In this document: piece by piece, positions 36,217 to 55,824 of the stretch
How positions within the stretch are numbered: the stretch's first letter is position 1
Layout: each line of letters starts with the position of its first letter
Assembly: GCF_003044935.1 (NCBI RefSeq)
Contig: NZ_POXP01000003.1
Location: 62,001 to 126,000 of the forward strand
Source of the DNA: Neisseria subflava
Lineage (GTDB): Bacteria; Pseudomonadota; Gammaproteobacteria; Burkholderiales; Neisseriaceae
Reading direction: 5' to 3'
DNA: 64,000 nucleotides
Translations under genes and position numbers: made by a program
The notes under the pieces: model-generated
Databases searched by the model: none
What the model was told of the DNA's origin: nothing
Seen by the model: the letters and a program-made list of their open reading frames with translations, nothing else

Positions 36217-36290
36217 GTGTTTCCCTTCAGACGGCCTTATGGCCGTCATATTGTGCGTCAGGCCGTCTGAATGGCAGACGGCGCGACCGT

Positions 36291-37280: not shown

Positions 37281-37381
37281 GTTTCTCTTCCATATGGGAA
37301 CGGAGCTTACTTTAAAACAAACGGCTTTGGGGTGCAAGGGCGGCGTTTGTGAAAAATATTTTGTGCCGTTTAAAAAGCCTT

Positions 37382-37407
37382 AGGCCGTCTGAAAGTTCAG
37401 ACGGCCT
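37382..37407 (-). terminator. Inverted DUS pair ending the polysaccharide locus
   Basis: AGGCCGTCTGAA-AG-TTCAGACGGCCT immediately after the wzc stop. Confidence 0.7.
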
Positions 37408-37415
37408 GCTTCGGT

Positions 37416-39575
37416 TTATGATTTATTGTTACCGGAATGGTAGGCATCGTAGGCGTAGTAGTCGTAGCTGTTGTTGGCTTCGCGCTTCATGCCGTTGAGG
37501 ACGACACCTTTGATGTTGATGTGGTTTTGTTTGAGGCGTTCGACGCTGGCCTCAAGCTCTCGTGCACGCGTGTGCGCATAACGGCTGATCATCAGGACGG
37601 TGCCTGCATGTTGGCCGATGATGACGGCGTCGGTCACGGCCAATACGGGCGGCGTGTCCAAGATGACGTAATCGTAGCGTTGGCGCGCGTGGGCGAGCAA
37701 TTCGTTGAAACGGTTGTCCATCAAAAGCTCGGACGGATTGCTAGGATAGCTGCCGCTGCTGATGAGGTGGAGGTTTTCAATGCCGGTCTCTTGTACGGCT
37801 TTGGCCGGAGCCGCTTTGCCGCTTAGGATGTCAGACAAGCCGAACTCGGGGGTAAGGCCGAAGAGTCGGTCGAGGTAGCCTTTGCGCATATCGGTATCGA
37901 TAAGCAGGACGCGTTTGCCCGATTGCGCCATTACGGCGGCGAGGTTGGCGGAGATAAAGGACTTGCCTGCCTCAGGCGAGGCACCGGTAATCATGAGGAC
38001 GTTGTTAGGCGCGTCCAGCATGGAAAAGTAGATATTGGTGCGCAGGGCGCGGATGGCTTCGACTGCCGTGTCGGCACGGTCTTCGCTGGCCAGCAGATAG
38101 TTGGAACGGCCGCCGGTTTTCTTGAATTTGCTTTTGAAGAAGTCGCGTTTTTGCTGGGTTTTGGAGTGCGGAACAAGAGCGACGACTTCCAAATTGAGGT
38201 TTTCGATTTCTTCAGATGAAGTAATGCCGTTTTTCATGCGGTTGCGAATCATCAGCCACAAAGCGGTCAATGAGCCTGCGGCAAGTGCGCTCAGGAGCGT
38301 GATGACGGTTTTGCGCGGTGCAACGGGGTTTTCAGGGACATAGGCATAATCGACGATGCGGACATTACCTTGCGCACTGGCTTTCATGATGTTGAGTTCT
38401 TGTTGTTTGCTCAACAGTTGGACGTAGGTTGCTTGGTTGGTTTCTACGTCACGGGTCAGGCGGATAACTTCTTGTTGGGTGTTCGGCAACTCGGCGATTT
38501 GTTGGTTGATTTTGTTTTTAGCGCGCTCGAGAACGGAGAGTTTGTCCAATACGGCTTTATAGGAAGGGTGTTCCGGCGTGTACAACTCGGCCAAACCTGC
38601 TTCTTCGGTTTTGAGCAGGGTAATTTGGGTTTCGATGCCGGTCAGGCTTTCCAATGCGCCTTTGGACTCGAGCGGGATGTCGAGGGAACCTGATTGTTGG
38701 CGGTAGGCATTGAGTTTGTTTTCAGCATCTTGCAAGGTTTCTTTCAAGCGTGGCAATTCTTCGCTGATGAAAGCCAATCCGCTGGATGCAACTTGGACGT
38801 CGCGTTCGCGATTTTGCGCAACGTAGTTGTCGGCAATGCTGTTGAGGATGACGCTGGTACGTTTAGGGTCGGTGCCGGTAAAGGTAAGGTTGATGATGGG
38901 GCTGGTTTTACCTTTGCTGATGACCGCCAGTTTGTTTTGGATGTTTTCGATGGCGCTGATGCGGGAGAACTTGGTTAACGCAAATTCTTGACCCGGGTTG
39001 GCCAGGATTTGATCGATTTTGAGGGTGGTTTGATTGTTGATTTTCAGAGGCACGCCGACCTTACCTTCGACAACGCGTTTGTCAGGCAGGGTAAGGGTAT
39101 AGGCTTTGTTGCTCTTGGCGGTCAGCGTGAAGGTTTTGTTGAACCATTCGTCTTGTACGGTAAAGCTGCCGACGGTCAGTTTGGGATCGGGGTCGCCGCT
39201 GATGTTGTGCATCAGGCTGCCGATAACGGGTGTGTATTTGGCTTTGACTTCTTGGTCAAGCTGAAGGTCGTCAACGGTTTTACCCAGCACCAGGCGTGAT
39301 TGAACCAACTCGACTTCTGCTTCAGACGGCGTGGTTTGGTTGTTGAAGATGCTGTTGATTTCAGTCAGGATTTGGTTTTGTCGCGTTTCAATTTCCAGCA
39401 TGGCGTCGGCACGGTATTGCGGAGTGGATGCCAGGCTGAAGGCTGCGCCAAGAATACCGCCTGCAAGCAGGGCGGCGAGGATTTTGTATTTATTTGTCCA
39501 AATTACTCGCAGCTGTTGGCCGAAGTCGATTTCGTCGTTGTCTGCGCTGTAAGGTGTGTAGGTCGTTTTTTTCAT
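37416..39575 (-). CDS. wzc: Polysaccharide co-polymerase / BY-type tyrosine kinase Wzc
   Basis: 719 residues. The Wzz-like part has membrane helices at about 30-50 and 425-445 with a long periplasmic coiled-coil between. The cytoplasmic kinase has Walker A GASPEAGKS (531-539), Walker A' LLIDTD (557-562), Walker B VILDTP (637-642) and a C-terminal tyrosine cluster at 704, 706, 707, 709 and 712. Such fused proteobacterial kinases control polymerisation and export of Wzy-type capsule or EPS by cycling phosphorylation with Wzb. Last gene of the locus. Confidence 0.93.
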   Translation of the reverse strand: MKKTTYTPYSADNDEIDFGQQLRVIWTNKYKILAALLAGGILGAAFSLASTPQYRADAMLEIETRQNQILTEINSIFNNQTTPSEAEVELVQSRLVLGKTVDDLQLDQEVKAKYTPVIGSLMHNISGDPDPKLTVGSFTVQDEWFNKTFTLTAKSNKAYTLTLPDKRVVEGKVGVPLKINNQTTLKIDQILANPGQEFALTKFSRISAIENIQNKLAVISKGKTSPIINLTFTGTDPKRTSVILNSIADNYVAQNRERDVQVASSGLAFISEELPRLKETLQDAENKLNAYRQQSGSLDIPLESKGALESLTGIETQITLLKTEEAGLAELYTPEHPSYKAVLDKLSVLERAKNKINQQIAELPNTQQEVIRLTRDVETNQATYVQLLSKQQELNIMKASAQGNVRIVDYAYVPENPVAPRKTVITLLSALAAGSLTALWLMIRNRMKNGITSSEEIENLNLEVVALVPHSKTQQKRDFFKSKFKKTGGRSNYLLASEDRADTAVEAIRALRTNIYFSMLDAPNNVLMITGASPEAGKSFISANLAAVMAQSGKRVLLIDTDMRKGYLDRLFGLTPEFGLSDILSGKAAPAKAVQETGIENLHLISSGSYPSNPSELLMDNRFNELLAHARQRYDYVILDTPPVLAVTDAVIIGQHAGTVLMISRYAHTRARELEASVERLKQNHINIKGVVLNGMKREANNSYDYYAYDAYHSGNNKS

Positions 39576-39601
39576 TGCTTGCTTTCTTGTTCATGCCGGT
39601 T

Positions 39602-40051
39602 TTATACCGGTTGAGTTTTTCCGTGTAGTTTGGTTTTCCAAGTGTCTGCGGCAGTATTGAGCTGTTCAAAAACGGCTTCAAACATTTCACTGCTTTGTTT
39701 GTATGGGTCAGGTACGGTTTTTTTAGGCAACCATTGGGCAAACAGCATGGTTTTGCTGCGTGCCGGCGGATGGATGTCGGCCACCATGTCGATTTGACAG
39801 GGCTCCATGACGAGAATCAAATCGGCCTGTTCGCACATTGGGGCGGTCAGTTGGCGTGCCGTATGGCCTGCAACGATAACGCCGTGTTTGAGTGCGGTTT
39901 TGATGGCTTGGAAATCGGCATCCTTACCTGCCAGTGCTTTTATGCCGGCGCTGCTGATGCGGCGGCCGGGTAGTTTTTTCTGCATGATCCGCTCTGCGGT
40001 GGGGGAGCGGCAGATGTTGCCTAGGCAGACGATGAGTATGTTGTGGTACAT
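39602..40051 (-). CDS. wzb: Low-molecular-weight protein tyrosine phosphatase Wzb
   Basis: 149 residues. The P-loop CLGNICRSPTAE (Cys9, Arg15) and the general acid in VPDPYKQ (Asp115) are intact. It would dephosphorylate the Wzc tyrosine cluster. It sits 26 bases upstream of wzc and 170 bases downstream of wza in the same orientation. Confidence 0.92.
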   Translation of the reverse strand: MYHNILIVCLGNICRSPTAERIMQKKLPGRRISSAGIKALAGKDADFQAIKTALKHGVIVAGHTARQLTAPMCEQADLILVMEPCQIDMVADIHPPARSKTMLFAQWLPKKTVPDPYKQSSEMFEAVFEQLNTAADTWKTKLHGKTQPV

Positions 40052-40221
40052 GATATTGTTTCGGTTTATGGTCTGAAAAAAGCGTGAGTCAGACTATAAG
40101 GTACTACTTTTCCGTTTGTGCGGTGTGTACGGCTTTTATATGCCGTTTATGTAATTTGGTCGGATTGTGCGTGATTTTGTATCCTGCTGTCAAACAAGGG
40201 TCTGACAGCAGGAATCACTGC

Positions 40222-41349
40222 TTATTTAAACGTATTGTCGAGGGTGTTGACGTTGCTGATGGAGTTTGTAATTTGTGACATTACGCGGTTCCAGCGGGTA
40301 ACCGGGGCGGCGGTAACGTAAACGGTGTCTTCCGAACGCAGTTTGAATTCGCTGCCCAGTGCGTAAGAGGTCGCATCTTTCAGGTTGAGCTGGTAGATGT
40401 GGATAGGTTTGGCCGCATCTTCAGGTACGCGGCGGATCACGAATACGCCGGTTGCATCCGCATAGGCTTGGTTCATGCCGCCCACTTCGCCGAGCGCTTG
40501 GGTCAGGTTGAGGCCGTGATTGCCGATCGGCAGGGTGGCTTGTTTGCCGACTTCGCCCATGATGTAGATTTTGTTGTTGCTGCTGTTAGGAACGTAAACG
40601 ATGTCGCCATGGCTGAGGAGATGGTTTTGCGACATATCGCCGTATTGCAGCATGTCTTGCAGGGAAATGGTGCGGTCGACGCCGTTGTGCGTCCATTTGA
40701 TGTGTTGGGTGTCGGCACTTTGGGTGACACCGCCTGCTTGGTTGATGGCATCCAAAATGGTCATCGGAATATTGGTAATCGGTAGTTGACCTGCTTGGTT
40801 GATGGCACCGGATACAGAAATACGTTGCGAACGGAATTCGGTAACGTTGATGGCTACTTGAGGGTTTTTGATGTAGCGTTTCAGAAGGCTGGCCAGGGTA
40901 TTTTGCAATTCGTCCAAAGTTTTGCCTTTAGCTTGAATTTTGCCTGCCAACGGGTAAGTGATATAACCGCCCTCATCTACCCAGGCGCCGCGGCTGACTT
41001 GGTTGGTTTGCGGGTTGCTTTGCTGGATGGGGGAATTAAGGTCGGAGTGCGCCCAAACCATGATATTGAGGACATCGCCACTGCCGATGCGGTAGCGGTA
41101 AGCGCTTTTGCTTTGCTCCAAGCCTTGGTTGGCTTGGGAAAGTACGGGTGGCGTACGCATTTTTTCAATCAGGTTGGGCGTGATGGGGTAAACGGCAACA
41201 CGGCTGTCGAGGTTGGTATCGGCTGCGGTGTCGGTATCGGTGTAAACAATGGTTTTGGTTCTGGTTTTGATGGTTGAACCAGGAATGACTGTTGTGCTGT
41301 TGCAGGCAGTCAGTGCGAATAGAGTAAGCAGGGAGAGCGTTTTTTTCAT
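40222..41349 (-). CDS. wza: Polysaccharide export lipoprotein Wza
   Basis: 375 residues. The signal peptide ends in LTAC (lipidated Cys16). The export domain (YRYRIGSGDVLNIMVWAHSDLN), two SLBB-type ligand-binding domains (INQAGQLPITNIPMTILDAINQAGG, MGEVGKQATLPIGNHGLNLTQALGEVGG) and a C-terminal segment identify an OPX/Wza protein, the octameric outer-membrane channel. Meningococcal CtrA belongs to the same superfamily, but the sequence next to Wzb/Wzc and Wzx/Wzy points to Wza. Confidence 0.92.
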   Translation of the reverse strand: MKKTLSLLTLFALTACNSTTVIPGSTIKTRTKTIVYTDTDTAADTNLDSRVAVYPITPNLIEKMRTPPVLSQANQGLEQSKSAYRYRIGSGDVLNIMVWAHSDLNSPIQQSNPQTNQVSRGAWVDEGGYITYPLAGKIQAKGKTLDELQNTLASLLKRYIKNPQVAINVTEFRSQRISVSGAINQAGQLPITNIPMTILDAINQAGGVTQSADTQHIKWTHNGVDRTISLQDMLQYGDMSQNHLLSHGDIVYVPNSSNNKIYIMGEVGKQATLPIGNHGLNLTQALGEVGGMNQAYADATGVFVIRRVPEDAAKPIHIYQLNLKDATSYALGSEFKLRSEDTVYVTAAPVTRWNRVMSQITNSISNVNTLDNTFK

Positions 41350-41375
41350 GTAGTAGTCCTTGCGGGATAGTGTCC

Positions 41376-41403
41376 GGACCGTCTGAAAATGTTCAGACGG
41401 CCT
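41376..41403 (-). terminator. Imperfect inverted DUS pair between pglD and wza
   Basis: GGACCGTCTGAA faces TTCAGACGGCC across a short loop in the 43-bp gap. The first arm deviates from the AG dialect (GAC for AGG), so the hairpin is weaker; partial termination inside the operon is possible. Confidence 0.45.
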
Positions 41404-43294
41404 TATTGTTTTGTTGCCAAACCAAGTCGCAGATATCGTCTTTAGGTACGAAGCCTGTCGGTGCGCGCAGCAGAAGCTGGCGCAGGCTGTTTTGGTCGCT
41501 TTGGAGACAAGCGGTTTGGAGTTCCGACAGTATGTCAGATAATTGCGTCCATGGAAGCATTACTTCACTGGCGGTCATAATACGGGGATGAGTGGTTTTT
41601 TGCACCTCGTCGCCGATGAGCAGTTCTTCATAAAGTTTCTCACCCGGGCGCAGGCCGGTAATCTTGATTTCGATGTCGCCGTGCGGGTGTTGCTCGTCTT
41701 TGACTTTGAGACCGCTGAGGACAATCATTTGACGGGCAAGGTCGATGATTTTGACAGATTCGCCCATGTCGAGGACGAATACGTCGCCGCCTTTACCCAT
41801 TGCGCCGGCTTGGATAACCAGTTGCGCCGCTTCGGGAATGGTCATGAAGTAGCGGGTAATGTCTTGGTGGGTCAGGGTAATCGGGCCACCTTCGGCAATT
41901 TGTTTTTCAAATACCGGGACAACGGAGCCGGACGAACCCAATACATTGCCGAAACGCACCATGCAGAAGCGTGTTTTTTGTTCTGGCTCGGCGGCAAGCG
42001 CTTGCAGGCAGAGTTCGGCCATGCGTTTGCTGGCGCCCATGGTGTTGGTCGGACGGACGGCTTTGTCGGTGGAAATCAAAACAAAGGTGGAAACGCCAGC
42101 ATCTACGGCAGCCTGCGCGCAGCAGAGTGTGCCGAACACGTTGTTTTGAATGCCTTCGATGGTGTTGAACTCTACCATAGGGACGTGTTTGTAGGCTGCG
42201 GCATGGTAGACGGTGTCGACGTGATAGGCTTGCATAATGCTGCTGAGGCGGTCTTTGTTTTGAACCGAACCCAAAAGCGGTACGACTTCGACTTGGCTGC
42301 CTTGCGCGGCTTGGGTTTCGCGCAATTCTTTGTCTATGCTGTATAGGGCAAATTCGGATAATTCAAACAACAGCAGTTTGGTCGGACGGCAGTTGAGAAT
42401 CTGACGGCAAAGTTCGGAGCCGATAGAGCCGCCTGCGCCGGTCACCATCACGACTTTGTCGCTGATGTCGGCACTCATTAATTCAGGGCGCGGTGCCACA
42501 GGGGCGCGGCCGAGCAAATCGACCACAGAGATTTTTTTCAATGAGCTGACGTTGATTTTGCCGTCCACCAAATCTTTCATGCCCGGAATGGTCAGGACTT
42601 CGCATTTGTATGCTTCGAGGCGGCGGATGATGTCTTTGCGTTCTTCCGGCGTAGAACTTGGAATCGCCAGCAGAATTTTGCGTACGCCGTAGCGGCTGAT
42701 CAGCATCGGGATTTCGTTGGGGTTGTAGACGGCAAGGTCATAGATGACGGTACGTTGGATTTTCGGGTTGTCATCGACAAAGGCGATGGCCGAGTATTCG
42801 TTAACCTGTTTGATGGCTTCCAACAACTGGCGGCCGGATTGGCCTGCACCGTAGATGATGACGGGGGTCATTTGTTTGCGGTGATGATCGGTCAGAATCG
42901 CACGCAGGATCATACGCGAGCTGGTCACGCCGACCACCAAGACCAAGAAATAGACGATGGGCAGGGCAAGGTGCAGTTTTTGCTCAAAAACCAGGGTGGT
43001 CAGGCAGAACAAGACCGCTGAAATAATGCTGCCGAATGCGGCGGCGGTCAGGACGCGGACGCTGACGAAGCGCGTAACGGCGCGGTAGAGGCCGATACGG
43101 ATGAAAAGGATGATGGTCAGCAACGCAGTGCTGCCGAAAGCTAGCCAGTTGGCGATACTCAACCATTCGTCGGAGTATTGCACTTTGAGGCTTTGGGCAA
43201 ACCAAAACGCCACGAATATCATCAAGATATCGTGAATGACGAAGAAGGTTTTTTTTAGATTGCGCGGCAGAGCCAGCAGGGTTTCCAAGTTCAT
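41393..43294 (-). CDS. pglD: UDP-GlcNAc 4,6-dehydratase (PglD/WbpM/CapD type)
   Basis: 633 residues. Four N-terminal membrane helices (about 18-36, 47-66, 80-104, 109-124), a first nucleotide-binding fold (VIIYGAGQSG at 146-155) and the catalytic SDR domain with GAGGSIG (286-292), STDKA (408-412) and the SMK-type MGASKR (419-424). It converts UDP-GlcNAc to UDP-4-keto-6-deoxy-GlcNAc, the first step towards bacillosamine-type sugars. Equivalent to the dehydratase of the neisserial protein-glycosylation locus, here placed amid capsule-type genes. Confidence 0.92.
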   Translation of the reverse strand: MNLETLLALPRNLKKTFFVIHDILMIFVAFWFAQSLKVQYSDEWLSIANWLAFGSTALLTIILFIRIGLYRAVTRFVSVRVLTAAAFGSIISAVLFCLTTLVFEQKLHLALPIVYFLVLVVGVTSSRMILRAILTDHHRKQMTPVIIYGAGQSGRQLLEAIKQVNEYSAIAFVDDNPKIQRTVIYDLAVYNPNEIPMLISRYGVRKILLAIPSSTPEERKDIIRRLEAYKCEVLTIPGMKDLVDGKINVSSLKKISVVDLLGRAPVAPRPELMSADISDKVVMVTGAGGSIGSELCRQILNCRPTKLLLFELSEFALYSIDKELRETQAAQGSQVEVVPLLGSVQNKDRLSSIMQAYHVDTVYHAAAYKHVPMVEFNTIEGIQNNVFGTLCCAQAAVDAGVSTFVLISTDKAVRPTNTMGASKRMAELCLQALAAEPEQKTRFCMVRFGNVLGSSGSVVPVFEKQIAEGGPITLTHQDITRYFMTIPEAAQLVIQAGAMGKGGDVFVLDMGESVKIIDLARQMIVLSGLKVKDEQHPHGDIEIKITGLRPGEKLYEELLIGDEVQKTTHPRIMTASEVMLPWTQLSDILSELQTACLQSDQNSLRQLLLRAPTGFVPKDDICDLVWQQNNKAV

Positions 43295-43366
43295 TTTATT
43301 TTTTACGTGTGTCTGAGTGTTGTAATGTGGCTTGGTACGGATTGTTTGAAGCAGGCTGTTTTGCTT

Positions 43367-43404
43367 TTTTCAGACGGCCTGAAGTTGCAGGCCGTCTGAA
43401 AATG
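43367..43404 (-). terminator. Inverted DUS pair between the aminotransferase and pglD
   Basis: TTTTCAGACGGCCT and AGGCCGTCTGAAAA flank a loop of about eight bases in the 111-bp gap. A stable hairpin inside the operon may attenuate pglD-wza-wzb-wzc. Confidence 0.5.
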
Positions 43405-43405
43405 A

Positions 43406-44581
43406 TTATGCCGTGGCTTCAGTCAATACGGCTTCTATGTTTTCTTTGCAGAACGCAATTTCTTCATCGGTCAGGGTTGGGTGCACCAAGAACATCAGGC
43501 TGGTGTCGCCCAACTCGACAGCGTTTTTCAAACGCTCTTTCGGACGCCAAGGCGTGTTGTCAAAGGCTTTTTCCAAATACACTTCGGAGCAACTGCCTTG
43601 ATAGCATGGCACTTTGCGCGCGTTCAGTTCGTTGACGATGCGGTCGCGTGTCCAGCCTTCTTTCAGGTGTTCGGGTTTGACGAAAACGTAGAACTTGTAT
43701 TGCGCGTGTTCGATGTAGTCGGCCACTTCAACCAAACGGATGCTGGCAAATTTGCCCAAGCTTTCAGCCAGTTTGGCAGCGTGCGCTTGACGGCGGGCAG
43801 TCCATTCAGGCATGCGTTTGAGCTGGATGCGGCCGATGACCGCCTGCATTTCCATCATGCGCCAGTTGGTGCCGAAGCTTTCGTGCAACCAGCGGAAACC
43901 GGGTGCGTGTTCGCGGTGGTACACGGCATCGTAGCTTTTGCCGTGGTCTTTGTACGACCACATTTTGCTCCACAGCTCTTTGTCGTTGGTAGTAACCATG
44001 CCGCCTTCGCCGCCGGTGGTCATGACTTTGTCTTGGCAGAACGACCAAGCACCGACGTGACCGATAGAGCCGACGGATTTGCCTTTGTATTTCGCACCGT
44101 GCGCTTGGGCGCAGTCTTCGATAACCCACAAGTTATGTTCTTTTGCCAAAGCCATGATGTCGTCCATTTCGGCAGGCATACCGGCAAGGTGAACCACGAT
44201 GATGGCTTTGGTGTTTGGCGTCAAAGCGGCTTTGATGGTTTCGGCGCTGATGTTTTGGCTGTTCAAATCGACATCGGCAAACACCGGATTTGCGCCGGCG
44301 GTCACGATGCAGGACGCTGAAGCCAAGAAAGTACGCGAAGTGACAATCACATCATCGCCTTGGCCGATACCCATTGCTTTGAGGGCTACGTCCAAAGCCA
44401 ACGTACCGTTGGAAAGGGCGACGGCGTATTGCGTGCCGACAAAGGCGGCAAATTCTTTTTCAAATTCGCGACATTCCGTACCTGTCCAGTAGTTGACTTT
44501 GTTGGACAGCAGGACTTTGGAAACGGCATCGGCTTCTTCTTGAGTAAAGCTTGGCCATGGGGAGAGTGATGTATTAAGCAT
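43406..44581 (-). CDS. pglC: UDP-4-keto-sugar aminotransferase (PglC type, DegT/DnrJ/EryC1/StrS)
   Basis: 391 residues. PLP-dependent fold with the NGT phosphate-binding loop (VALSNGTLALD), Asp156 in VIEDCAQAHG and the Schiff-base Lys185 in WSFCQDKVMTTGGEGG. It would make UDP-4-amino-4,6-dideoxy-GlcNAc from the PglD product. The start overlaps the formyltransferase stop by eight bases. Confidence 0.92.
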   Translation of the reverse strand: MLNTSLSPWPSFTQEEADAVSKVLLSNKVNYWTGTECREFEKEFAAFVGTQYAVALSNGTLALDVALKAMGIGQGDDVIVTSRTFLASASCIVTAGANPVFADVDLNSQNISAETIKAALTPNTKAIIVVHLAGMPAEMDDIMALAKEHNLWVIEDCAQAHGAKYKGKSVGSIGHVGAWSFCQDKVMTTGGEGGMVTTNDKELWSKMWSYKDHGKSYDAVYHREHAPGFRWLHESFGTNWRMMEMQAVIGRIQLKRMPEWTARRQAHAAKLAESLGKFASIRLVEVADYIEHAQYKFYVFVKPEHLKEGWTRDRIVNELNARKVPCYQGSCSEVYLEKAFDNTPWRPKERLKNAVELGDTSLMFLVHPTLTDEEIAFCKENIEAVLTEATA

Positions 44582-45353
44582 TTGTTTTTCCTGCGAAAAG
44601 ACTGGTTGAGCCTTTGGGGGCGATTTCTTCCAGCAGTTGGCGATTGATCAGGGTGTATTTCTGACCGTTGATTTCGACGTATGCGCCGTCGTAAGGAGGG
44701 AACCAGAAGGCGCGGATTTTCTTCTCGATATTGTCGCCGTCGTGGATTTGCTTCATGGCTTCCATCTCGTCGCGGCTGACGTAGCGGCCACCAATGTTTG
44801 GCGTGGTTGGCAATTTGGTTTTCGACTCGATGGCGCGGGTGATGATGCGTCGTGCGAAATCTTCCAATGCCTGCATGGTTTTGCGTTCGAGCGATTGGGC
44901 GGTTTCTGTTTCGGCGTCGATAGGGAAACGGTCCACTTCGATAATTTCACCGGTATCGATGGAAGCGTCGACGTAGTGGGCAGTATTGCCCCATTCGTTC
45001 AGCTCGTCCATGATGGCCAGGTTGTAGCCGCCCGTGCCTTTGTATTCGGGCAACAGCGCAGGGTGGAAGTTGATCGTGCCTAAAGTCGGAATGCTCAGGA
45101 ATTCATCACGCAGCTTGCGCCAGTAAAGGACGGACAAGCCCAAATCGTATTTCAGACGGCCTTCTCGCATTGCTTCCAAAGCCGTATCGAAGGTGTACAG
45201 GGGCAAGCCCAATTCCTGCGCGGCGGCCGTAGTCGGCGAGCCTTGCAGATGGCTGTCGGTCAAGACACCGATGATTTCGATATGGTCTTGTTTGGTCAAA
45301 AAACGAAGCAGGTTGGCGGAAACCTGTTTACGACCCATAAATAAGATTTTCAT
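44574..45353 (-). CDS. Sugar N-formyltransferase (Fmt-like)
   Basis: 259 residues. N-terminal formyltransferase fold with the catalytic triad Asn95-His97-Asp133 in TINFHPALLPEYKGTGG and ASIDTGEI. It lacks the tRNA-binding layout and length of Fmt. Sugar formyltransferases use N10-formyl-THF to formylate an amino group on a nucleotide-linked sugar; the adjacent PglC product is the obvious acceptor. The start is the ATG at 45353 (MKILFMGRK) with GGAGAA-type complement upstream. The gap to the HAD gene is 13 bases. Confidence 0.88.
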   Translation of the reverse strand: MKILFMGRKQVSANLLRFLTKQDHIEIIGVLTDSHLQGSPTTAAAQELGLPLYTFDTALEAMREGRLKYDLGLSVLYWRKLRDEFLSIPTLGTINFHPALLPEYKGTGGYNLAIMDELNEWGNTAHYVDASIDTGEIIEVDRFPIDAETETAQSLERKTMQALEDFARRIITRAIESKTKLPTTPNIGGRYVSRDEMEAMKQIHDGDNIEKKIRAFWFPPYDGAYVEINGQKYTLINRQLLEEIAPKGSTSLFAGKTNA

Positions 45354-45366
45354 GGAGAAATGTCCC

Positions 45367-46059: not shown

Positions 46060-47026
46060 GTTCTCTTACCAAAACCTTAGCATCATAACGAAGCATGATT
46101 AAATTGTTTTCCCAGTCGTCGGAGAAGGGAATGTCTTGGCCGCCGATGTATTCTTGAATCAGCCAGCCCGGATAGTTGCCGCCTGCGGCGTAGGTCAGTG
46201 GGAAACCGCCGCCGAAACGCGGGTTGATTTCCACGCCGTAGGTCGTATTGTCGGTTTTGCTGACGAAGAACTGCGCGGTAATGCAGCCGCGTGCGCCTTC
46301 CAATACGGTCATTTTTTCAACCAACTCTTCATACAGGGCATTGCGCCGGGTCGCGCCTTTGCTGACTTCGCCGGTACGCACTTCCAAACGTTCGCGAGGA
46401 ATGGCGCATTTCAGACGGCCTTGACGGTCGTAATACATATCGACGGTGAACTCGGAAAAAGCATTTTCAATATCGATGTATTGGGCGAACATCATTTTCG
46501 GATCTTCGGCAATGTCGGCGGTCAGATCGGCCGGTGTGTTGATTTTTTTCGCACCGATGGCGCGGCTGCCGTCGTAAGGCTTGGCAAAACACGGGAAGGC
46601 CAGGCTGTCCCGTTCGTAAATTTCAGGCGAACGGATGCCGTATTGTGCAAACAGGCCTGCGGTCAGGCGCTTGTCGCGGCACAGGGTAATCAGTTTGGCG
46701 TCGGAAATGACGATGTGTATTCCTTCGGCTTCAAAACGGTCGCGTGCTTCGGCCAGCTTGAGCAGTTCGGTATCGATGGTCGGCACAATCAGGCCGATGT
46801 TGTGTTGTTTGGCCAGTTCGAAAATGCTGTCGATGTATTCGGCTGCGTCGATGCGCGGTACGCTGAAAGCGCGGTCGGCGACATGACAGGCTGAAGACAT
46901 GTGGGGATTGAGGTCGGTGGCAAATACGCCGATGCCGTCTGAAAAACGTGCGGCTTCGGTTTGGAAGTCCTGCACCAATTCGACGCGGCGGCCTGCCGAC
47001 AGAATCAGTATGTTATTTTTTTTCAT
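46052..47026 (-). CDS. ATP-grasp enzyme (carbamoyl-phosphate-synthase-like)
   Basis: 324 residues. Pre-ATP-grasp fold (ILILSAGRRVELVQDF), ATP-grasp core with PCFAKPYDGSRAIGAKKI, and the metal-binding Glu/Asn in YGVEINPRFGGGFP. In meningococcus the variant PglB2 has an ATP-grasp domain fused to the initiating transferase and attaches an acyl (glyceramide) group to the 4-amino sugar; here the equivalent is a separate protein, whose gene overlaps that of the transferase by 14 bases. An AT-dialect DUS (46932-46943) encodes SDGIG. Confidence 0.85.
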   Translation of the reverse strand: MKKNNILILSAGRRVELVQDFQTEAARFSDGIGVFATDLNPHMSSACHVADRAFSVPRIDAAEYIDSIFELAKQHNIGLIVPTIDTELLKLAEARDRFEAEGIHIVISDAKLITLCRDKRLTAGLFAQYGIRSPEIYERDSLAFPCFAKPYDGSRAIGAKKINTPADLTADIAEDPKMMFAQYIDIENAFSEFTVDMYYDRQGRLKCAIPRERLEVRTGEVSKGATRRNALYEELVEKMTVLEGARGCITAQFFVSKTDNTTYGVEINPRFGGGFPLTYAAGGNYPGWLIQEYIGGQDIPFSDDWENNLIMLRYDAKVLVREHD

Positions 47027-47630
47027 CAGTTTTATTACCCGTGAAATAAGGCATAGTGGCTTCTCCTTCGGCTGAGATGCCTTCTTTGACGAAGACTTTT
47101 TTAACCGTCAGGAACAAAATTTTAATATCCAGCCAGAAGCTGAAGTGGTCGATGTACCAAACATCGTGGGCGAACTTTTCGTCCCATGAAATAGCGTTGC
47201 GGCCATTGACTTGCGCCCAACCGGTCACGCCCGGTTTCATTTCGTGGCGGCGGTTTTGGAAGTCGTTGTACAACGGCAGGTAGTGCATCAGCAGCGGACG
47301 AGGGCCAACCAAACTCATCTCGCCTTTTAAGACATTCCATAATTCAGGAAGTTCGTCCAAGCTGGTGGCACGTAATTTTTTGCCGAAATCGGTCAGGCGT
47401 TCGCTGTCCGGTAACGGGTTGCCGTCTTTATCGATTGCATCGCGCATGGAGCGGAATTTAATCATTTTAAACGGCTTGCCGTCTTTACCCGGCCGCTCTT
47501 GGATGAAGAACACGGGCGAGCCTAAGTTTTTGCGGATGAGGTACACCAAAATCAAAAACACAGGCGACAGGATAATCAGCCCAGAGGCGGAGGCAACAAT
47601 GTCAAACAGGCGTTTGAAAAATTTATTCAT
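47013..47630 (-). CDS. Initiating phosphoglycosyl transferase (PglB N-domain / PglC-Campylobacter type)
   Basis: 205 residues. Re-entrant membrane helix at about 11-33, RPGKDGKPFKMIKFRSM, the catalytic Asp92-Glu93 in TSLDELPEL, and LVGPRPLL with KPGVTGWAQVNGRN. It moves a sugar phosphate from UDP to undecaprenyl phosphate and so starts glycan assembly. Neisserial PglB normally carries a C-terminal acetyltransferase (or ATP-grasp) domain; this protein ends after the transferase. It overlaps both neighbouring genes. Confidence 0.9.
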   Translation of the reverse strand: MNKFFKRLFDIVASASGLIILSPVFLILVYLIRKNLGSPVFFIQERPGKDGKPFKMIKFRSMRDAIDKDGNPLPDSERLTDFGKKLRATSLDELPELWNVLKGEMSLVGPRPLLMHYLPLYNDFQNRRHEMKPGVTGWAQVNGRNAISWDEKFAHDVWYIDHFSFWLDIKILFLTVKKVFVKEGISAEGEATMPYFTGNKTDEKK

Positions 47631-48795
47631 GAGCTAATCTTTCAATCAGGTTGACGATTTTTTGATAGGCAACGTCGCGCTTGAAGCGGCGGACGATTTC
47701 TTCGGACTGAACAGGATCGTCTTTGCGCTTCAAAATATCTTTGGCGGCTTTAACGAAGCTGTCCACATCGCCGGAACGGTAGTTCGCATGCGGCAGCAGG
47801 GTAAGGACTTCGGCAACTTCGTCGTTGACCTGGCTGTTCAGAATCGGTTTTTGCAAAGCCATATAGTCGGAAAGTTTGTTGGTAATCGACTGCATGGCGT
47901 AAGAGTGGATGGCGTTGACGGAAATGTCGCAGCCTTTGGCGACCGACATCATTTCGGCGTAAGGAATGTAGCCGTAAAACTTGATGCCGTCGCAGGCATA
48001 TTGTTTGAGCCTGTCTAAATCGGGGCCGCCGCCCATGATGTGCAACTCGACGTTTTCGCCGGCATCCAACAGCTTGCGAACGCCTTTGCACACGGTTTCC
48101 ACGTCATAGCTGTAACTGAGCGTGCCCAAGTAGAAAAAGCGGATTTTGTCGTCGCCGAAATTTTTGGCAGGCGCGGCATCGAGTTTCGGAAAATCCGCGC
48201 CGATATAGACGACTTCGCCGGGTACATTCGGATTGGCTTCTTTGGCACGGTCGAGATAAGTCTGTGATACGGCAACCAGCGCGTCGGCGTAGCGGTAGGC
48301 TTGGTTGGCGCGTGAAGCAAAGGGCAGCAGGTTATGCGGTACTTTTTTCAAAAACGGTACGACCGAGGAGAAGGACTCCGGCCATACGTCCTGCACATCG
48401 ACAATCAGCTTGTAGCCCAAACGCGCTTTGTGTTTGCCCAAGAGCAGGTTGGTGGCAATCAGCGGATAGGCGGAAAAGACGACGTCTTGTTCGCCCGGAC
48501 GGCAGTTTTCCAACCATTTTTCAAAATGTTTGACGAAGCGGTGATGGCTGGTTACGCGCCTTAAAGACACGTTTTTGCTGTACCCGCTTTCTTCCAACAA
48601 CATCACTTTCAGACGGCCTTGTGAGGCGGCCTCGGCATCTTCGGGCCGTCTGAAAGATTTGTCGTAGTGCTTGAAGTTGCTGGTAATCAGCAACACGTCA
48701 TGCGACTGCGACAACAGCTCGGCAAGATACCAGAAGCGGTTGAAATGCGGCTCGGACGGCAGCGAGCAATAAGGGGCGACGATGGTAATGTTCAT
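47623..48795 (-). CDS. Glycosyltransferase family 4 (WbuB-like)
   Basis: 390 residues, GT-B fold: N-terminal APYCSLPSEPHFNRFWYLAELL, VDVQDVWPES in the middle, and the sugar-nucleotide domain with FFYLGTLSYSYDVETV, LHIMGGGPD and YIPYAEMM. WbuB-like enzymes add N-acetyl amino sugars (for example FucNAc). A DUS in the gene encodes a RLK/RPE stretch. Overlaps the PGT gene by eight bases. Confidence 0.85.
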   Translation of the reverse strand: MNITIVAPYCSLPSEPHFNRFWYLAELLSQSHDVLLITSNFKHYDKSFRRPEDAEAASQGRLKVMLLEESGYSKNVSLRRVTSHHRFVKHFEKWLENCRPGEQDVVFSAYPLIATNLLLGKHKARLGYKLIVDVQDVWPESFSSVVPFLKKVPHNLLPFASRANQAYRYADALVAVSQTYLDRAKEANPNVPGEVVYIGADFPKLDAAPAKNFGDDKIRFFYLGTLSYSYDVETVCKGVRKLLDAGENVELHIMGGGPDLDRLKQYACDGIKFYGYIPYAEMMSVAKGCDISVNAIHSYAMQSITNKLSDYMALQKPILNSQVNDEVAEVLTLLPHANYRSGDVDSFVKAAKDILKRKDDPVQSEEIVRRFKRDVAYQKIVNLIERLAHE

Positions 48796-48808
48796 GTTTC
48801 AGACGGCC

Positions 48809-49879
48809 TTACATTTCGTACGCAGCCATGGTGGTGCGGTAGATTTCGTCGTCGGAGCATAAAGTTTCGACGTGTTTGTGCAGGGCTTTGCCCATTTGAC
48901 CGCGCAGCTCTGGATGCTTGATGAGTGTATCGACGGCTTCGATAAACGCTTCGTCATCGCCGAAAGGAATGCAGTAGCCGGTTTGGCCGGTGATGACCAT
49001 TTCGGAAATGCCCGCCATGTTGTAGGTCACGACAGGTGTGTCGTAAAGGCCGGCTTCCAAAATATTGTTGCCGACGCCTGCACCGTGGTCGCCCACGCAA
49101 TGCGGCGTGTTCACCAAAATATCGACTTCTTTGAAGTAGCCGGTCAAGTCGCGGACGCCGCCGAGGAAGGTAACTTTGTCTTCGATGCCCAAACGTTTGG
49201 CTTGGGCTTTGAGGTTGTCCATTTCTTCGCCGATGCCTGCAACGTTGAGGCGTACAGGCATACCGCGGTCAACCATTTTCTTCAAAATATCCAGCATTAA
49301 ATGCACGGCGCGGACGGTGTCCAAACGGGAAAGCGTGCCCAGTTGGACATAGTCTTTGACTGTTTTTTCAGGAACGTAATCCGCTTTGTGCAGGGCGTTG
49401 TAAGTGTAGGTGATGCGGTTGGCAGGGAAACCGTAACGGATGAGTTTTTCGCGTTCGTGTTTGCAGTTGCCGATGATGTATACGCCCAGCTTGTCGAAAA
49501 GCTTGGCAATTTTCGGATAAGTTTCCGGATCAAGGCCGCGCGCGTGGTAGAACACTTTGGTTTTTGGTGAGGCAAACTTGGCCGCAATGGCGCAGGCCGG
49601 AACGATACGCGCCATTTGGCAGTGAATCACATCGGGTTTCTCTTTTTTCAGCAGTTTCATGTAGGCAAACATGCCTTTGATGTAACCCAAAAGACCGCCT
49701 TGGTAAAAATCAATCGGCTGCCAACGGATGCCCAATGCTTGCGCTTCCTGAATCAAAGGGCCGTCTGAAGAGGCCAATACGATATCGTGTCCGCGTTGTT
49801 TGAGCAGGCGGCCGAGGCGGAAAGTGGCGTTTTCAGTGCCACCGAGGCCGGACATGGAGGTAGTCAGGATGATTTTCAT
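48809..49879 (-). CDS. Glycosyltransferase family 4 (PglA/PglH-like)
   Basis: 356 residues. TTSMSGLGGTENATFRLGRLL begins the GT-B fold, LDPETYPKIAKLFDKLG in the centre, and VTFLGGVRDLTGYFKEVDILVNTP with NNILEAGLYDTPVVTYN and its EAGL Glu in the donor-binding domain. It resembles neisserial pilin/LOS GT4 enzymes as I remember them. The start is the ATG at 49879, overlapping the polymerase stop (ATGA); the open frame further upstream is not coding. Confidence 0.86.
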   Translation of the reverse strand: MKIILTTSMSGLGGTENATFRLGRLLKQRGHDIVLASSDGPLIQEAQALGIRWQPIDFYQGGLLGYIKGMFAYMKLLKKEKPDVIHCQMARIVPACAIAAKFASPKTKVFYHARGLDPETYPKIAKLFDKLGVYIIGNCKHEREKLIRYGFPANRITYTYNALHKADYVPEKTVKDYVQLGTLSRLDTVRAVHLMLDILKKMVDRGMPVRLNVAGIGEEMDNLKAQAKRLGIEDKVTFLGGVRDLTGYFKEVDILVNTPHCVGDHGAGVGNNILEAGLYDTPVVTYNMAGISEMVITGQTGYCIPFGDDEAFIEAVDTLIKHPELRGQMGKALHKHVETLCSDDEIYRTTMAAYEM

Positions 49880-51186
49880 GATGGTTTCTTCGTATCGTAT
49901 AGTGTTTCGTTGTATGCGTAAGCGGCCATATCTTTCAGCTTGGGCGCAACAAATACGCTGTAAATAAAAATCAGCAGGCAGGGCAGCCAGATAAACGGCA
50001 TACGCAAAATGGTGGACGGAATAAAACCGGCCAGCAGGAAAATGCCCAAGGCAACCCAAGCCAAAACGCGCGATTTGCCGGTTACTGCGCGGTTTGAGGC
50101 GGTGTAGAGGAAATAACACGCCACAAAGGCAATAAAGCCGAGCAGGGAAATCATGCCGAAACCCAGATACAGCTCGATGATGAAGCTGTGCGGGTTTTCA
50201 AAGCCCAAGCTGCCGCTCAAATGGCCGCCGAAATATTCGCGGAAGTTTTTAGGGCCGTAGCCGGTCAGCAGCAGGGGCGGATTGTTCCAGAAGTAGTTGT
50301 AAATCTCCTGACGGTAGGACACGGAGTTGTCGCTGCCCAAGTCGTACAGGAAGAGGTACACGCGGCTGGAAAAGCGTTCCAAAAACTGGTTGCCGTTGAG
50401 CGACAGCAAAAATTCCGCAATCGCGCGTGACGGAATCATCGACAACACCAACGCCAGCAAACCTGCTACGCCGACCGTAATAAAACCGTTTTTGCGATAG
50501 GCCGTATAAACCAGCAAAATTAACAGGTAACAGCCGATGGCGGTACGCGATACGCTAGCGAAAATGGCCATGCCCAACAGCAGGAACAAGCCCCAGCCCA
50601 GCAGTTTTTCTTTGTGTTTCCGTCCTTGGAGTTGGAAGAAAAACAAAATGGCAGGCGCAAGGCAGACTGCGGTAGCGGCAAGGTTGTTCGGGTTAAAGAA
50701 CAAGCCTTTGAGCGAGCCTTCATCAATAGCCAACTCATCGCTGGCACTCACAAACTGAATACCGGTGGCCAGCTCTGCAAACGGCGGCACGGCGATAAAC
50801 AGCGTAAATACGACGAGGAACTTCTGAATCGTCCTCAAAGGGTCGTCGGCGCGCTTCAATACTTGGTAAAACAAGTAGAAGAAAGCCGGAACCGCCATAA
50901 AAAACAAAATATCCATGTACTGCGTCGGCGTCAGCGACGTAATGCCCATGTGGATGGCAGGCCAGATGCACATGGCAGTCAGGGCGCAGAGCATGGCAAA
51001 AATCTTGCGCGGAATATGCTTGCTTTCCAGAAAAAATACGACAAAACCAAGCAGTACAAATATCAGGGTCAGCGGGTTATCAATACGCGGTACGCCGACC
51101 TTAAAGGACAGCGCGGGCCCCAGCATATAGGCTGCGAGCATGATGTATAGGATGTAAGTGTATAAGTTCAGACGTTTTATTTTCAT
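49876..51186 (-). CDS. wzy: O-antigen polymerase/ligase superfamily protein (Wzy)
   Basis: 436 residues with about eleven membrane helices and a large loop containing GYGPKNFREYFGGHLSGSLGF followed by NPHSFIIELYLGFG, the Wzy_C/WaaL-type motif. In this setting, between flippase and glycosyltransferases and with Wza/Wzb/Wzc present, it most likely polymerises lipid-linked repeats. A ligase (or PglL-like oligosaccharyltransferase) function cannot be excluded, but the protein is shorter than PglL. Confidence 0.83.
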   Translation of the reverse strand: MKIKRLNLYTYILYIMLAAYMLGPALSFKVGVPRIDNPLTLIFVLLGFVVFFLESKHIPRKIFAMLCALTAMCIWPAIHMGITSLTPTQYMDILFFMAVPAFFYLFYQVLKRADDPLRTIQKFLVVFTLFIAVPPFAELATGIQFVSASDELAIDEGSLKGLFFNPNNLAATAVCLAPAILFFFQLQGRKHKEKLLGWGLFLLLGMAIFASVSRTAIGCYLLILLVYTAYRKNGFITVGVAGLLALVLSMIPSRAIAEFLLSLNGNQFLERFSSRVYLFLYDLGSDNSVSYRQEIYNYFWNNPPLLLTGYGPKNFREYFGGHLSGSLGFENPHSFIIELYLGFGMISLLGFIAFVACYFLYTASNRAVTGKSRVLAWVALGIFLLAGFIPSTILRMPFIWLPCLLIFIYSVFVAPKLKDMAAYAYNETLYDTKKPS

Positions 51187-51228
51187 AGTCGTTCTGTTGT
51201 TATCGTAGAGACGTGAATCTCAGGTTGG

Positions 51229-52656
51229 CTATTTTGCCGAACGGTTTAATTTGGCTTTGATTTTTTCGGTCGCGGCAAATAGTGCGTGTTTGTATTTTAG
51301 GAACAGGAAACCCAGTCCGACTGCCCATGCCAGCGCAAACCAAATATAGTTGTCGCGTGTACCCAGCCAAGTGTAGGCAAGGCAGATTATCAGGCAGAGC
51401 GTTGAGTTGGTATAAATCTTCAGGCGCGGCAAAGGCTGCCACAGGCGTGAAGAGAATTCGGTTTTCAAGATGAAAAACAGCCAAAAAGCCGTTGCGCTGG
51501 CCATAGCTGCACCTTTTGCACCAAATTTCGGTACCAACAGATAGAGTAGGGCGGTATTGGCGATAAAGGCAACGATGTTGATGACAGTAATCAGCCAAGT
51601 CGAGCGGACGACGTTCAAACCGATGCCGCTGACTTCGGTCAGCGTGTAAAACAGGGGGAAGAGCATACACGAGAGCAGGATAAATTGAACCTGCGTGTAT
51701 TTTTCCGGCAGTATCCAGGTCGCCATCGGCGAGAAAATCCCGATGAGGCAAATCATTGCGCTGATGAGGACGGTCATGGAAAGCGTGATGTCGCCGATTT
51801 TGTCCAGATTGTTTTTTTCTTCTACCCATTTGAACACCAAAGGCGCCCAAATGGTGGAGAACACGCTTTGGAAAATCAAGGCGACGGCGCCAAAGCTGAC
51901 CGCCATCGAATAAATGCCCAACTCGTCCAAGCCAGAGATGTTTTTGAGGACAAAGCGGTCAATCGAAGTCAGGCCCCAATAGGCCAAGTTGCCGAATGCC
52001 AGCGGCAGGCCGTAGCGCAGGCCGTCCCGATGCAGCTCGGACGACCATTTCGCATGGGAAACGGCTTGCAGATCTCGGCGCAGTTGATAGATCAACAGTA
52101 AAACAGTCAGCACTTGGGCTGCGGTGTAGGCAAAAACCAGCGAAGTAGTATTGGCAGGCAAGCCGGAAGCAATCACGGCAAAAACCAACACCAAAATCAA
52201 GAATTTCGGCGCAAGCTGGCTGACGGAAAAAGCCAATGCCTGCTCTTTCATCCGCAAAATCAAGGCTAAAAAACGGATAATCAGCGTGGTGGCTAAGAAA
52301 ATCAGGAAGAGAATCCCCAAATTCGCACTGGGGATGTCGAAAATGATTTCAGACGGCCATGATGCGTTTATCAGCAACACTAAAACCACAACCGCCACCG
52401 TCAGAATCAATGGCGATAAAAAAACGGATTTGAACAGCGCGGCCTTGTCTTTAACGGCGTAATAGTCGCGAATATAGGATTGGTCCAGCCCCAAGCCCAA
52501 GAGCAGAATGCTCAGTCCGGCAATGGTCTGCAAGAGTACGATACGGCCGATGTCTTCCGCAGGGAAGTACCATGAGATGAGCGGCAGGGAAAGCAGGCCG
52601 AAAGCGGCGCTTCCTATCGGGCCCAATGCGTAGCCGAGGATTTTTTTCGCGTTCAT
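51229..52656 (-). CDS. wzx: Polysaccharide flippase (Wzx, MATE/MVF fold)
   Basis: 475 residues with twelve to fourteen membrane helices. Opening LGYALGPIGSAAFGLLSLPLISWYFPAEDIGRI and the RDGLRYGLPLAFGNLAYWGLTSIDRF stretch are typical of oligosaccharide flippases. It moves lipid-linked repeats across the inner membrane. One DUS lies within the gene and another between it and the dehydrogenase gene. Confidence 0.9.
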   Translation of the reverse strand: MNAKKILGYALGPIGSAAFGLLSLPLISWYFPAEDIGRIVLLQTIAGLSILLLGLGLDQSYIRDYYAVKDKAALFKSVFLSPLILTVAVVVLVLLINASWPSEIIFDIPSANLGILFLIFLATTLIIRFLALILRMKEQALAFSVSQLAPKFLILVLVFAVIASGLPANTTSLVFAYTAAQVLTVLLLIYQLRRDLQAVSHAKWSSELHRDGLRYGLPLAFGNLAYWGLTSIDRFVLKNISGLDELGIYSMAVSFGAVALIFQSVFSTIWAPLVFKWVEEKNNLDKIGDITLSMTVLISAMICLIGIFSPMATWILPEKYTQVQFILLSCMLFPLFYTLTEVSGIGLNVVRSTWLITVINIVAFIANTALLYLLVPKFGAKGAAMASATAFWLFFILKTEFSSRLWQPLPRLKIYTNSTLCLIICLAYTWLGTRDNYIWFALAWAVGLGFLFLKYKHALFAATEKIKAKLNRSAK

Positions 52657-52824
52657 ATTATTTGTTTTCAGACGGCCAGAAGTTCGAGCTGAGCGTTTTT
52701 CGTAAGAGATGCGTTGTTACCGTTGCCGGTTTGCCAAGGCCGTCTGAAAAACAAATGGCCTTGGGAAACCGGCCGCCGTCCCAGTCGGGGAAACCGGTGG
52801 CAGCCGGATGCGTCTGAAGCAAGA

Positions 52825-54132
52825 TTATGCTTTGATGACTTTAGGATTTTTCACTGGGAATTTGCCGCGAGTATCGACAATCAGCTTGGCATGTTCGGTG
52901 ATCATGTCATAGTCGAATTTGTCGTGATCGGTGGTCAGAACCACGCAGTCGTATTGAGCGACAGTTTCAGGGGTCAGCGCTTCGCTCTTCAGGTCGAAGT
53001 AGTGGTGGCCGGGGATATGTGGGAACTCTGGAACGTGCGGGTCAGAGTAGGAAACCACTGCGCCCAGTTTGTGCAGGCGGTCCATCACTTCCACAGACGG
53101 GCTTTCACGCATATCGTCCACGTTTTTCTTGTAGGCGATACCCAATACCAAGATTTTGCTGTCTTTGATAGAACGGTTGTGGTCATTCAAAGCCAGGCCG
53201 ACTTTTTCGATAACGTAGTCGGGCATGTGGGAGTTCACTTCGCCAGCCAGCTCGATGAAACGGGTGTTTACACCGTATTCTCGTGCTTTCCAAGTCAGGT
53301 AGAACGGGTCGATAGGGATACAGTGGCCGCCCAATCCAGGGCCTGGATAATAAGCAACGAAGCCGAACGGTTTGGTTGCAGCGGCATTGATGACTTCGTG
53401 AATGTCGATGCCCATTTTGTCGGCAACGATTTTCATCTCGTTCACCAAGCCGATGTTTACGGCGCGGTGGATGTTTTCCAGAAGTTTGGTCAGCTCGGCA
53501 GCTTTGGTGGAGCTTACTGGAACAACTTTATCGATGGCAGGTTGGTACAGCGCAAGGCCGACTTCCAAACACGCTGGGGTATGGCCGCCGATGACTTTTG
53601 GAATGGTACGGGTTTCAAAGTTAGGGTTGCCCGGGTCTTCACGCTCAGGAGAGTAAACCAAGAATACGTCTTGACCGACTTTCAAGCCGCCTTCTTCCAT
53701 GCGTGGCAGCAATTCTTCTTCGGTAGTACCGGGGTAGGTGGTGGATTCCAAAGACAGCACTTGACCGGCGCGCAGGTAAGGTTTTACCGCATCGGTAGTG
53801 TCGATCACAAAGCTCATGTCCGGCTCGCGGTATTTGTTCAGCGGAGTCGGTACGCACAAAATGACGGCTTCTACTTCGCCGATGCGGGAGAAGTCGGTCG
53901 TTGCTTCAAACAGGCTGTTGGAAGCAGCGGCAATTTTGTCGGAAGGGATATGCTCGATGTAGCTTTCGCCTTTATTGAGCTTGTCGACTTTGTTGGTGTC
54001 AATGTCGAAACCCAAAACTTGGTAACCGATGTCCACATAGCGCAACATCAGTGGTAAACCGACGTAGCCTAAGCCAACGATGCCGATTTTTGCGGTCTTA
54101 TCGGCAAATTTTTGTATCGTAATGTTTTTCAT
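52825..54132 (-). CDS. wbpA: UDP-N-acetyl-hexosamine 6-dehydrogenase (WbpA/TviB type)
   Basis: 435 residues. GLGYVGLP (20-27), YSPERED (160-166, family-specific), [17 protein letters not shown] and the catalytic Cys271 in [14 protein letters not shown]. The central sequence is closer to the WbpA/WecC group (UDP-GlcNAc or UDP-ManNAc) than to UDP-glucose dehydrogenase. It would provide an acidic sugar (a UDP-HexNAcA). First gene of the locus; a GC-rich 160-bp gap with DUS separates it from wzx. Confidence 0.88.
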
Positions 54133-55810: not shown

Positions 55811-55824
55811 GGTTTCAGACGGCC

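Follow-up and report, generated by a model that had tools for sequence, protein, structure and literature searches.

The commensal Neisseria tested in one study carry protein glycans of three to four sugars, among them diNAcBac-Hex-HexNAcA-HexNAc in N. flavescens and GATDH-Hex-HexNAcA-HexN in N. mucosa, and the core protein glycosylation (pgl) genes of the genus are given there in the order pglF-pglG-pglH-pglB-pglC-pglD, with a PglJ dehydrogenase in commensals (Hadjineophytou 2019; PMC6959607). Its main text speaks of just a few interspersed open reading frames (ORFs); wza and a polymerase are missing from it, and wzy occurs only in the title of a reference. A cluster of 14 gene types was listed for N. 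sicca 4320 by Stein et al. 2011 as a putative lipopolysaccharide (LPS) cluster that most commensals have in largely intact form; the section concerned names Wza, Wzb, and Wzc, reads the cluster as O-repeat genes, and draws no link to pgl (PMC3078933). In Acinetobacter baumannii, a single K unit is described as being used for both the capsule and PglL in the part of the literature consulted (PMC6333632). To these systems we compare here a locus that has the 14 gene types of N. sicca 4320 in unchanged order, at positions 37416 to 54132 of a 64,000-nucleotide stretch of N. subflava (assembly GCF_003044935.1, contig NZ_POXP01000003.1, positions 62,001 to 126,000; the window). Rather than a separate capsule locus, this is the core pgl locus for O-linked protein glycosylation, extended by wzy and wza-wzb-wzc.

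All 14 genes lie on the minus strand with open frames among the window ORFs, are separated by 13 intergenic gaps of −16 to 170 bases, and are each assigned with the backing of Pfam and NCBIfam. In order of transcription, they encode a PglJ-like NDP-sugar dehydrogenase (52825 to 54132; TIGR03026, 434.8 bits, cut-off 189.8); the Wzx flippase, counterpart of PglF (51229 to 52656; PF01943 Polysacc_synt); the Wzy polymerase (49876 to 51186; PF04932 Wzy_C, 33.9 bits, cut-off 31.7), the weakest assignment in the set; two GT4 glycosyltransferases named by their PglG and PglH positions (48809 to 49891, PF00534/PF13439; 47623 to 48795, PF13692); and an initiating phosphoglycosyl transferase of 205 amino acids (aa) that equals the transferase half of PglB (47013 to 47630; PF02397 Bac_transf). 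An acyl module follows, with a PglB2-like ATP-grasp ligase (46052 to 47026; a PRK12767-type model at 386.8 bits, slightly below the cut-off of 390), a HAD-family hydrolase (45367 to 46059; PF13419), and an N-formyltransferase (44574 to 45374; PF00551), the best PDB match of which is the GDP-4-amino-sugar formyltransferase 5vys at 54 bits. The remaining genes encode a PglC-type DegT aminotransferase (43406 to 44581; PF01041), a PglD-type (CapD-type) UDP-GlcNAc 4,6-dehydratase (41393 to 43294; PF02719, 430.8 bits; best PDB match 5bju, WlaL protein), the Wza outer-membrane OPX lipoprotein (40222 to 41349; PRK15078, Wza_C), the low-molecular-weight tyrosine phosphatase Wzb (39602 to 40051; PF01451), and Wzc, a co-polymerase with a bacterial tyrosine kinase (BY-kinase) domain (37416 to 39575; Wzz, GNVR, and AAA_31).

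The genes for Wzx, Wzy, Wza, Wzb, and Wzc form the set of a Wzx/Wzy-dependent (group 1 type) capsule, Wzy standing barely above its PF04932 cut-off. The best PDB match of Wza is the solved Wza 2j58, and Wzc matches the solved Wzc chains 9r62 and 7nhr, in both cases over nearly the full length; the Wzc domains are clear, but the NCBIfam Wzc equivalog scores 744.1 bits, below its cut-off of 1068. The original prediction, made from the letters and ORFs of the window, had described a complete Wzx/Wzy locus of 14 minus-strand genes with a BY-kinase, and the domains, PDB matches, and open frames agree with it. Its statement that the key motifs are intact was borne out by five tyrosines among the final 30 residues of Wzc, a CLGNICRS loop at residue 9 of Wzb, and an LTAC lipobox in Wza. 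The genes that it named stand; it overlooked that the sugar-building genes are the pgl core, and we add to its list the ATP-grasp, HAD, and formyltransferase genes and the pgl-type character of the sugar-nucleotide genes. The ratio of nonsynonymous to synonymous substitution rates (dN/dS) is below 0.6 in all comparisons with the four nearest genomes, at 0.00 to 0.24 except for wzb (0.24 to 0.56, with dS of 0.02 to 0.09).

We identify the locus as the pgl core because the only PglB-, PglC-, and PglD-type genes found in the genome sit there. There is one Bac_transf gene in the genome, at the locus, and one strong DegT match, also at the locus, the second match scoring 23.5 bits; the PglD-type dehydratase has exactly one match in 45 of 46 Neisseria genomes, the sole miss being a genome (G031) that is 68% complete. 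Wzc is present in 30 of these 46 genomes (E up to 1e-30), and the Wzc-lacking loci supply a further tie. The window transferase, with its best PDB match in the N,N′-diacetylbacillosaminyl-1-phosphate transferase 8g1n, is 80 to 94% identical to the first 200 to 205 residues of seven PglB-type proteins of 413 to 418 aa from Wzc-lacking loci, and in two of the seven the second half matches the whole chain of PDB 4m98, “Pilin glycosylation protein,” at 375.5 and 370.4 bits. The name PglB is thus anchored, because 4m98 matches the other half of proteins carrying a window-type transferase; the other core genes are recognized by domains and position, with wzy and the acyl genes interspersed. The window Wzx is 49 to 56% identical to the flippase of six Wzc-lacking pgl clusters, and both GT4 genes have matches at the equivalent place in such clusters. 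The name PglJ comes from the published role and distribution, without comparison to a named PglJ, and the enzyme is probably of the UDP-GlcNAc type. In one relative (L087), the transferase and ATP-grasp enzyme are fused in one 527-aa protein, which resembles the PglB2 with a distinct C-terminal domain described in the consulted part of PMC6959607.

Two further genes of interest lie outside the locus. A PglL-type protein of 638 aa with Wzy_C and Wzy_C_2 domains and no NCBIfam match is encoded about 175 kb away on the same contig, and its sequence suggests PglL activity. A GT4 gene at G000:C1:969870-971024 (the window genome) is 58% identical to the gene that lies between wzx and wzy in the locus L084 and is PglP-like by its position in relatives.

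The association of the export genes with the pgl core extends across the genus. The order DegT-CapD-Wza-Wzb-Wzc occurs in 29 of 29 other Wzc-positive loci, and over 435 genome pairs the CapD distances correlate with those of Wzc (r 0.97) and Wza (r 0.94), as against r 0.70 to 0.75 for Wzc, Wza, and CapD with the marker PrlC (Wzc 0.70, Wza 0.75); gtA and gtB distances were left out, as they may come from wrong paralogs. The wza-wzb-wzc genes belong to the pgl locus. From the 16 Wzc-lacking Neisseria genomes, 15 loci were fetched, G031 having no CapD match. Eight of these hold a pgl cluster, whole or lacking some genes, downstream of ribD (the upstream neighbor in the window as well) without wzy, wza, wzb, or wzc; one holds glycosyltransferase (GT)-GT-transferase-DegT-CapD without a ribD label, and three are truncated where the contig or the fetched stretch ends. 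None of the 15 gave a relic of wza, wzb, wzc, or wzy at E below 0.5. On the PrlC tree, the fewest changes within the genus are 6 for Wzc and 9 for CtrB. A single starred group of 16 unites six Wzc-lacking genomes (G005, G009, G015, G020, G023, and G039), the window clade, and the N. sicca clade, which fits loss of the polymer genes, on a tree of one marker with 17 of 48 inner branches open that does not prove the direction of change; from published gene patterns, the six are probably the pathogen clade. Separately, the Wzc-lacking locus L109 (G018) encodes a 416-aa PglB-type protein and a CapD match with one TAG inside and an open frame of 626 aa; in the closely related G043 (L073), the locus is complete, with the transferase and ATP-grasp enzyme encoded by separate genes.

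Variation among the Wzc-positive loci is concentrated in the middle. By open-frame labels, 15 of the 29 other loci have the ATP-grasp, HAD, and formyltransferase genes, 5 have ATP-grasp and HAD, 1 has ATP-grasp and formyltransferase, 1 has ATP-grasp alone, and 7 have none, so labeled; the HAD gene is present in 20 of the 22 with an ATP-grasp gene. Among the seven, the contig-cut L076 has a formyltransferase match of 47% identity over 90% of the query. L084 has a NeuD/PglB-type acetyltransferase in place of the acyl genes, and the N. weixii locus (L074) gave no formyltransferase match. L089 to L093 gave no match to the window Wzx or Wzy; L089 has another flippase and other GT genes, with a dTDP-rhamnose-type epimerase gene upstream. 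The acyl module and middle cassette are therefore exchanged, while initiation and export are kept. In L089 to L092, a distinct cassette of another flippase, GT genes, and a 398-aa membrane protein precedes the same pglB-pglC-pglD-wza-wzb-wzc block; the membrane protein, without a Pfam match in L089, is possibly a Wzy.

We consider it probable that this locus is a full-form pgl core locus, in which a single undecaprenyl pyrophosphate-linked oligosaccharide feeds both PglL and Wzy/Wza. The PglD-, PglC-, and acyl-module enzymes would make a UDP-4-acylamino-trideoxy-GlcNAc sugar, which the PglB-type transferase would load onto undecaprenyl phosphate; the two GT4 enzymes would add a hexose and an N-acetylhexuronic acid, the latter supplied through the dehydrogenase, and Wzx/PglF would flip the completed unit. 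In the periplasm, the path would fork, with PglL transferring the unit to proteins on one branch and, on the other, Wzy polymerizing it for Wzc-Wza export under Wzc/Wzb tyrosine phosphorylation, giving an acidic capsule or exopolysaccharide. The first sugar of the unit in this strain would carry a glyceramido or formyl group; polymerization by Wzy and export by Wza are likewise predicted. This reading is built on the observed gene content, single-copy core, synteny, co-inheritance of wza and wzc with capD, and purifying selection, with low dN/dS on both branches counted in its favor; from these we infer polymer synthesis, the common precursor, the sugar identities, and the direction of change. 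A pathogen-like clade retains the protein branch and is without the polymer branch. More tentatively, and at somewhat less than an even chance, the meningococcal and gonococcal pgl locus may be a reduced Wzy-dependent capsule locus, with commensals running the full fork so that the glycan also forms a second capsule beside Ctr and pathogens having lost the polymer branch.

The Wza-type export genes stand beside, rather than instead of, the ctr capsule genes. The comparison of OPX profiles proposed with the original prediction places the window protein with Wza, at 410.9 bits on the PRK15078 model (cut-off 333) against 152.1 for the CtrA-type protein of the same genome. The latter has no Wza_C match at E up to 1e-5, and the two share 30% identity across 310 aligned columns; the OPX protein of the locus is of the Wza group, not CtrA. 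The further suggestion that the locus represents a different export logic for the genus does not hold, given Wzc in 30 of the 46 genomes, a cluster listed in 2011, and the co-occurrence of Wzc and CtrB in 23 genomes, the window genome included. CtrB was above its family cut-off in 29 of the 46; seven genomes have Wzc only, six CtrB only, and ten neither (G031 and G034 among them, the other 44 genomes being those tallied with the tree), and a link between Wzc and Ctr presence was not detectable on the tree (4 starred independent pairs). CtrA-D are absent from the 14-gene locus, which does not replace the Ctr route. On another contig of the genome (G000:C2:278000-297900, L094), we observed a ctrA-D-type locus with Stealth and TagF-type genes and a hexapeptide-type transferase gene, possibly the cps that PMC6202450 describes for N. 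subflava. A 482-aa gene there had no Pfam match at E up to 1e-5, and no flippase or polymerase was found among the 8 proteins scanned. Wzx/Wzy and ABC capsules in one genome are known in general, according to the part of PMC5542703 consulted.

Several points weigh against the full-form reading. The polymer is a product predicted from the genes, and Wzy, at 55 to 59% identity to five aligned relatives, has a Wzy_C score only slightly over the Pfam cut-off; a profile built from the window protein and from five of the 23 loci labeled as having Wzy did not retrieve a relevant solved structure. The names PglC, PglD, PglF, PglG, PglH, and PglJ are given by domains, position, and published order and were not compared with named sequences. 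With a PglP-like transferase outside the locus, the polymer repeat need not equal the protein glycan, and the N. flavescens glycan begins, in the published data consulted, with diNAcBac (PMC6959607), whereas the window acyl genes predict a glyceramido or formyl sugar. On the comparative side, 5 of the 29 loci have another flippase/GT cassette, the dehydrogenase has ribD immediately before it in only 9 of the 29 stretches (L069 and L070 have partial ribD matches, and others start inside the locus or carry other sugar genes there), and 3 of the 15 Wzc-lacking loci have CapD without an adjoining DegT or transferase label. DegT distances correlate at r 0.77 to 0.82 with those of Wzc, Wza, and CapD (Wzc 0.77) and at 0.80 with PrlC and so follow them no more than they follow the marker. 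Of 37 genomes from the family's other genera, 5 have Wzc and 4 have CapD, and CapD adjoins Wza-Wzb-Wzc in only one of three genomes having both (G054), where the transferase and aminotransferase are different ones. Among the four nearest genomes, one (L068, G014) has Wzc split into frames of 617 and 140 aa, the other three being intact, and Wzx and Wzy of N. weixii (L074, G042) each fall into two frames. Deletion of the ctr-locus promoter in N. musculi gave extracts without an Alcian blue reaction, or with a reduction according to the figure legend (PMC9140248, as consulted in part); therefore, if that species carries the locus, a second acidic polymer was not seen there under those conditions.

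Other explanations share much of this evidence. That of Stein et al. 2011, in which Wzy polymerizes O-repeats of an LPS O antigen and a ligase joins them to lipid A-core, seems to us unlikely. The PglL-type protein may act as the O-antigen ligase; the Wzy profile gave no clear match to that protein. Against this explanation, a Wzy_C search of the genome at E up to 1 gave just two matches, the locus Wzy and the PglL-type protein, so that this family yielded no separate WaaL-type ligase; the locus carries Wza, Wzb, and Wzc; and the same section of the 2011 paper names another region, with two glycosyltransferases that are unique to strain 4320 (PMC3078933). We give a smaller chance to two product lines in one locus, the pgl genes serving proteins only and the Wzy/Wza polymer being built on another initiating sugar. 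The formyltransferase and ATP-grasp enzyme could make a second nucleotide sugar, and, between pglD and wza, an inverted repeat whose arms are of the uptake-sequence type (41379 to 41400; a 9-pair hairpin) may mark a transcription boundary, but the search for initiating enzymes, which covered the Bac_transf family and not others such as the WecA type, gave only one in the genome. Least probable of the three is a polymer arm that is silent or decaying in many species, leaving the locus to protein glycosylation only, for although the split wzc of G014, the split wzx and wzy of N. weixii, and the N. musculi extract without an Alcian blue reaction speak for it, dN/dS is low in the window clade, full-length Wzc is encoded in the window and, of the four nearest genomes, in three, and among the 30 Wzc-positive genomes 26 have Wzc in one piece without an internal stop, 3 have one TAA but frames of 713 to 714 aa, and 1 is split.

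The locus is preceded by ribD, which ends 574 bases before the cluster, and followed by gpsA, which starts 135 bases after it. The ribD-side gap (54133 to 54706, minus strand, 574 bases) is a possible promoter region with one promoter-like match at 54298 to 54270, in a scan totaling 15 matches against 15.0 expected, and falls within the lowest G+C step of the window (54001 to 55000). A terminator-like inverted repeat follows wzc (37381 to 37408; 12- and 11-pair hairpin on two strands). Arms of the GCCGTCTGAA type occur in both this repeat and the one at 41379 to 41400, where we take them to be the DNA uptake sequence. Recent acquisition as an island was rejected on a G+C content of 0.481 to 0.553 in 17 one-kb steps (37001 to 54000), within the window range of 0.386 to 0.587, and on the genus-wide occurrence of the locus. 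A described RNA element was rejected since Rfam at gathering score gave no match over 36000 to 56000, as was phase variation by long repeats, with two T8 runs, no G/C runs of at least 6, and a best tandem-repeat score of 39.

If the full-form reading is true, pglB, pglC, or pglD mutations in commensals that carry the complete locus would remove two surface glycans instead of one. The pglB and pglC mutants of N. musculi have colonization defects (PMC9140248, in the part consulted); should this species carry the full locus, the ascription of such defects to pilin glycosylation would need re-reading. The pilin-glycosylation genes of the pathogens would be recast as the remains of a capsule locus, neisserial O-glycosylation would gain a testable origin, and half of the sampled Neisseria genomes (23/46) may have two capsule export machines.

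A link between pgl and polymer export in Neisseria was not found in the literature searched, most subscription papers being outside the search, so that it may be in print elsewhere. The only paper met with Neisseria, pglD, and wza together concerns Vibrio vulnificus, as far as its consulted part shows; wza, wzc, wzx, and wzy do not occur in the main text of a later survey of commensal capsule genes (PMC6202450), nor does wza in two pgl papers (PMC9239064 and PMC11130364), where wzy appears only in a reference. The cluster itself is thus already published, its tie to pgl in Neisseria was not found in print, and a system of this kind is known from Acinetobacter. Compared with E. coli group 1 capsule export, the window Wza and Wzc are homologous to the solved Wza and Wzc over nearly their full length, whereas the initiating enzyme matches WbaP (146 bits) less well than the small bacillosaminyl transferase (223 bits). 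The meningococcal-type ctr capsule, also encoded in the window genome, uses ABC export and lies on another contig, and its CtrA-type protein is a distant relative of Wza at 30% identity. Lees-Miller 2013 reportedly tied the A. baumannii K locus to protein glycosylation by PglL. That K locus combines Wzx/Wzy with Wza-Wzb-Wzc, as here, in the consulted part of its description (PMC6333632). Unlike in Acinetobacter, the shared genes here are the neisserial pgl core, an ABC capsule locus is also present in the genome, and some relatives have the protein branch only.

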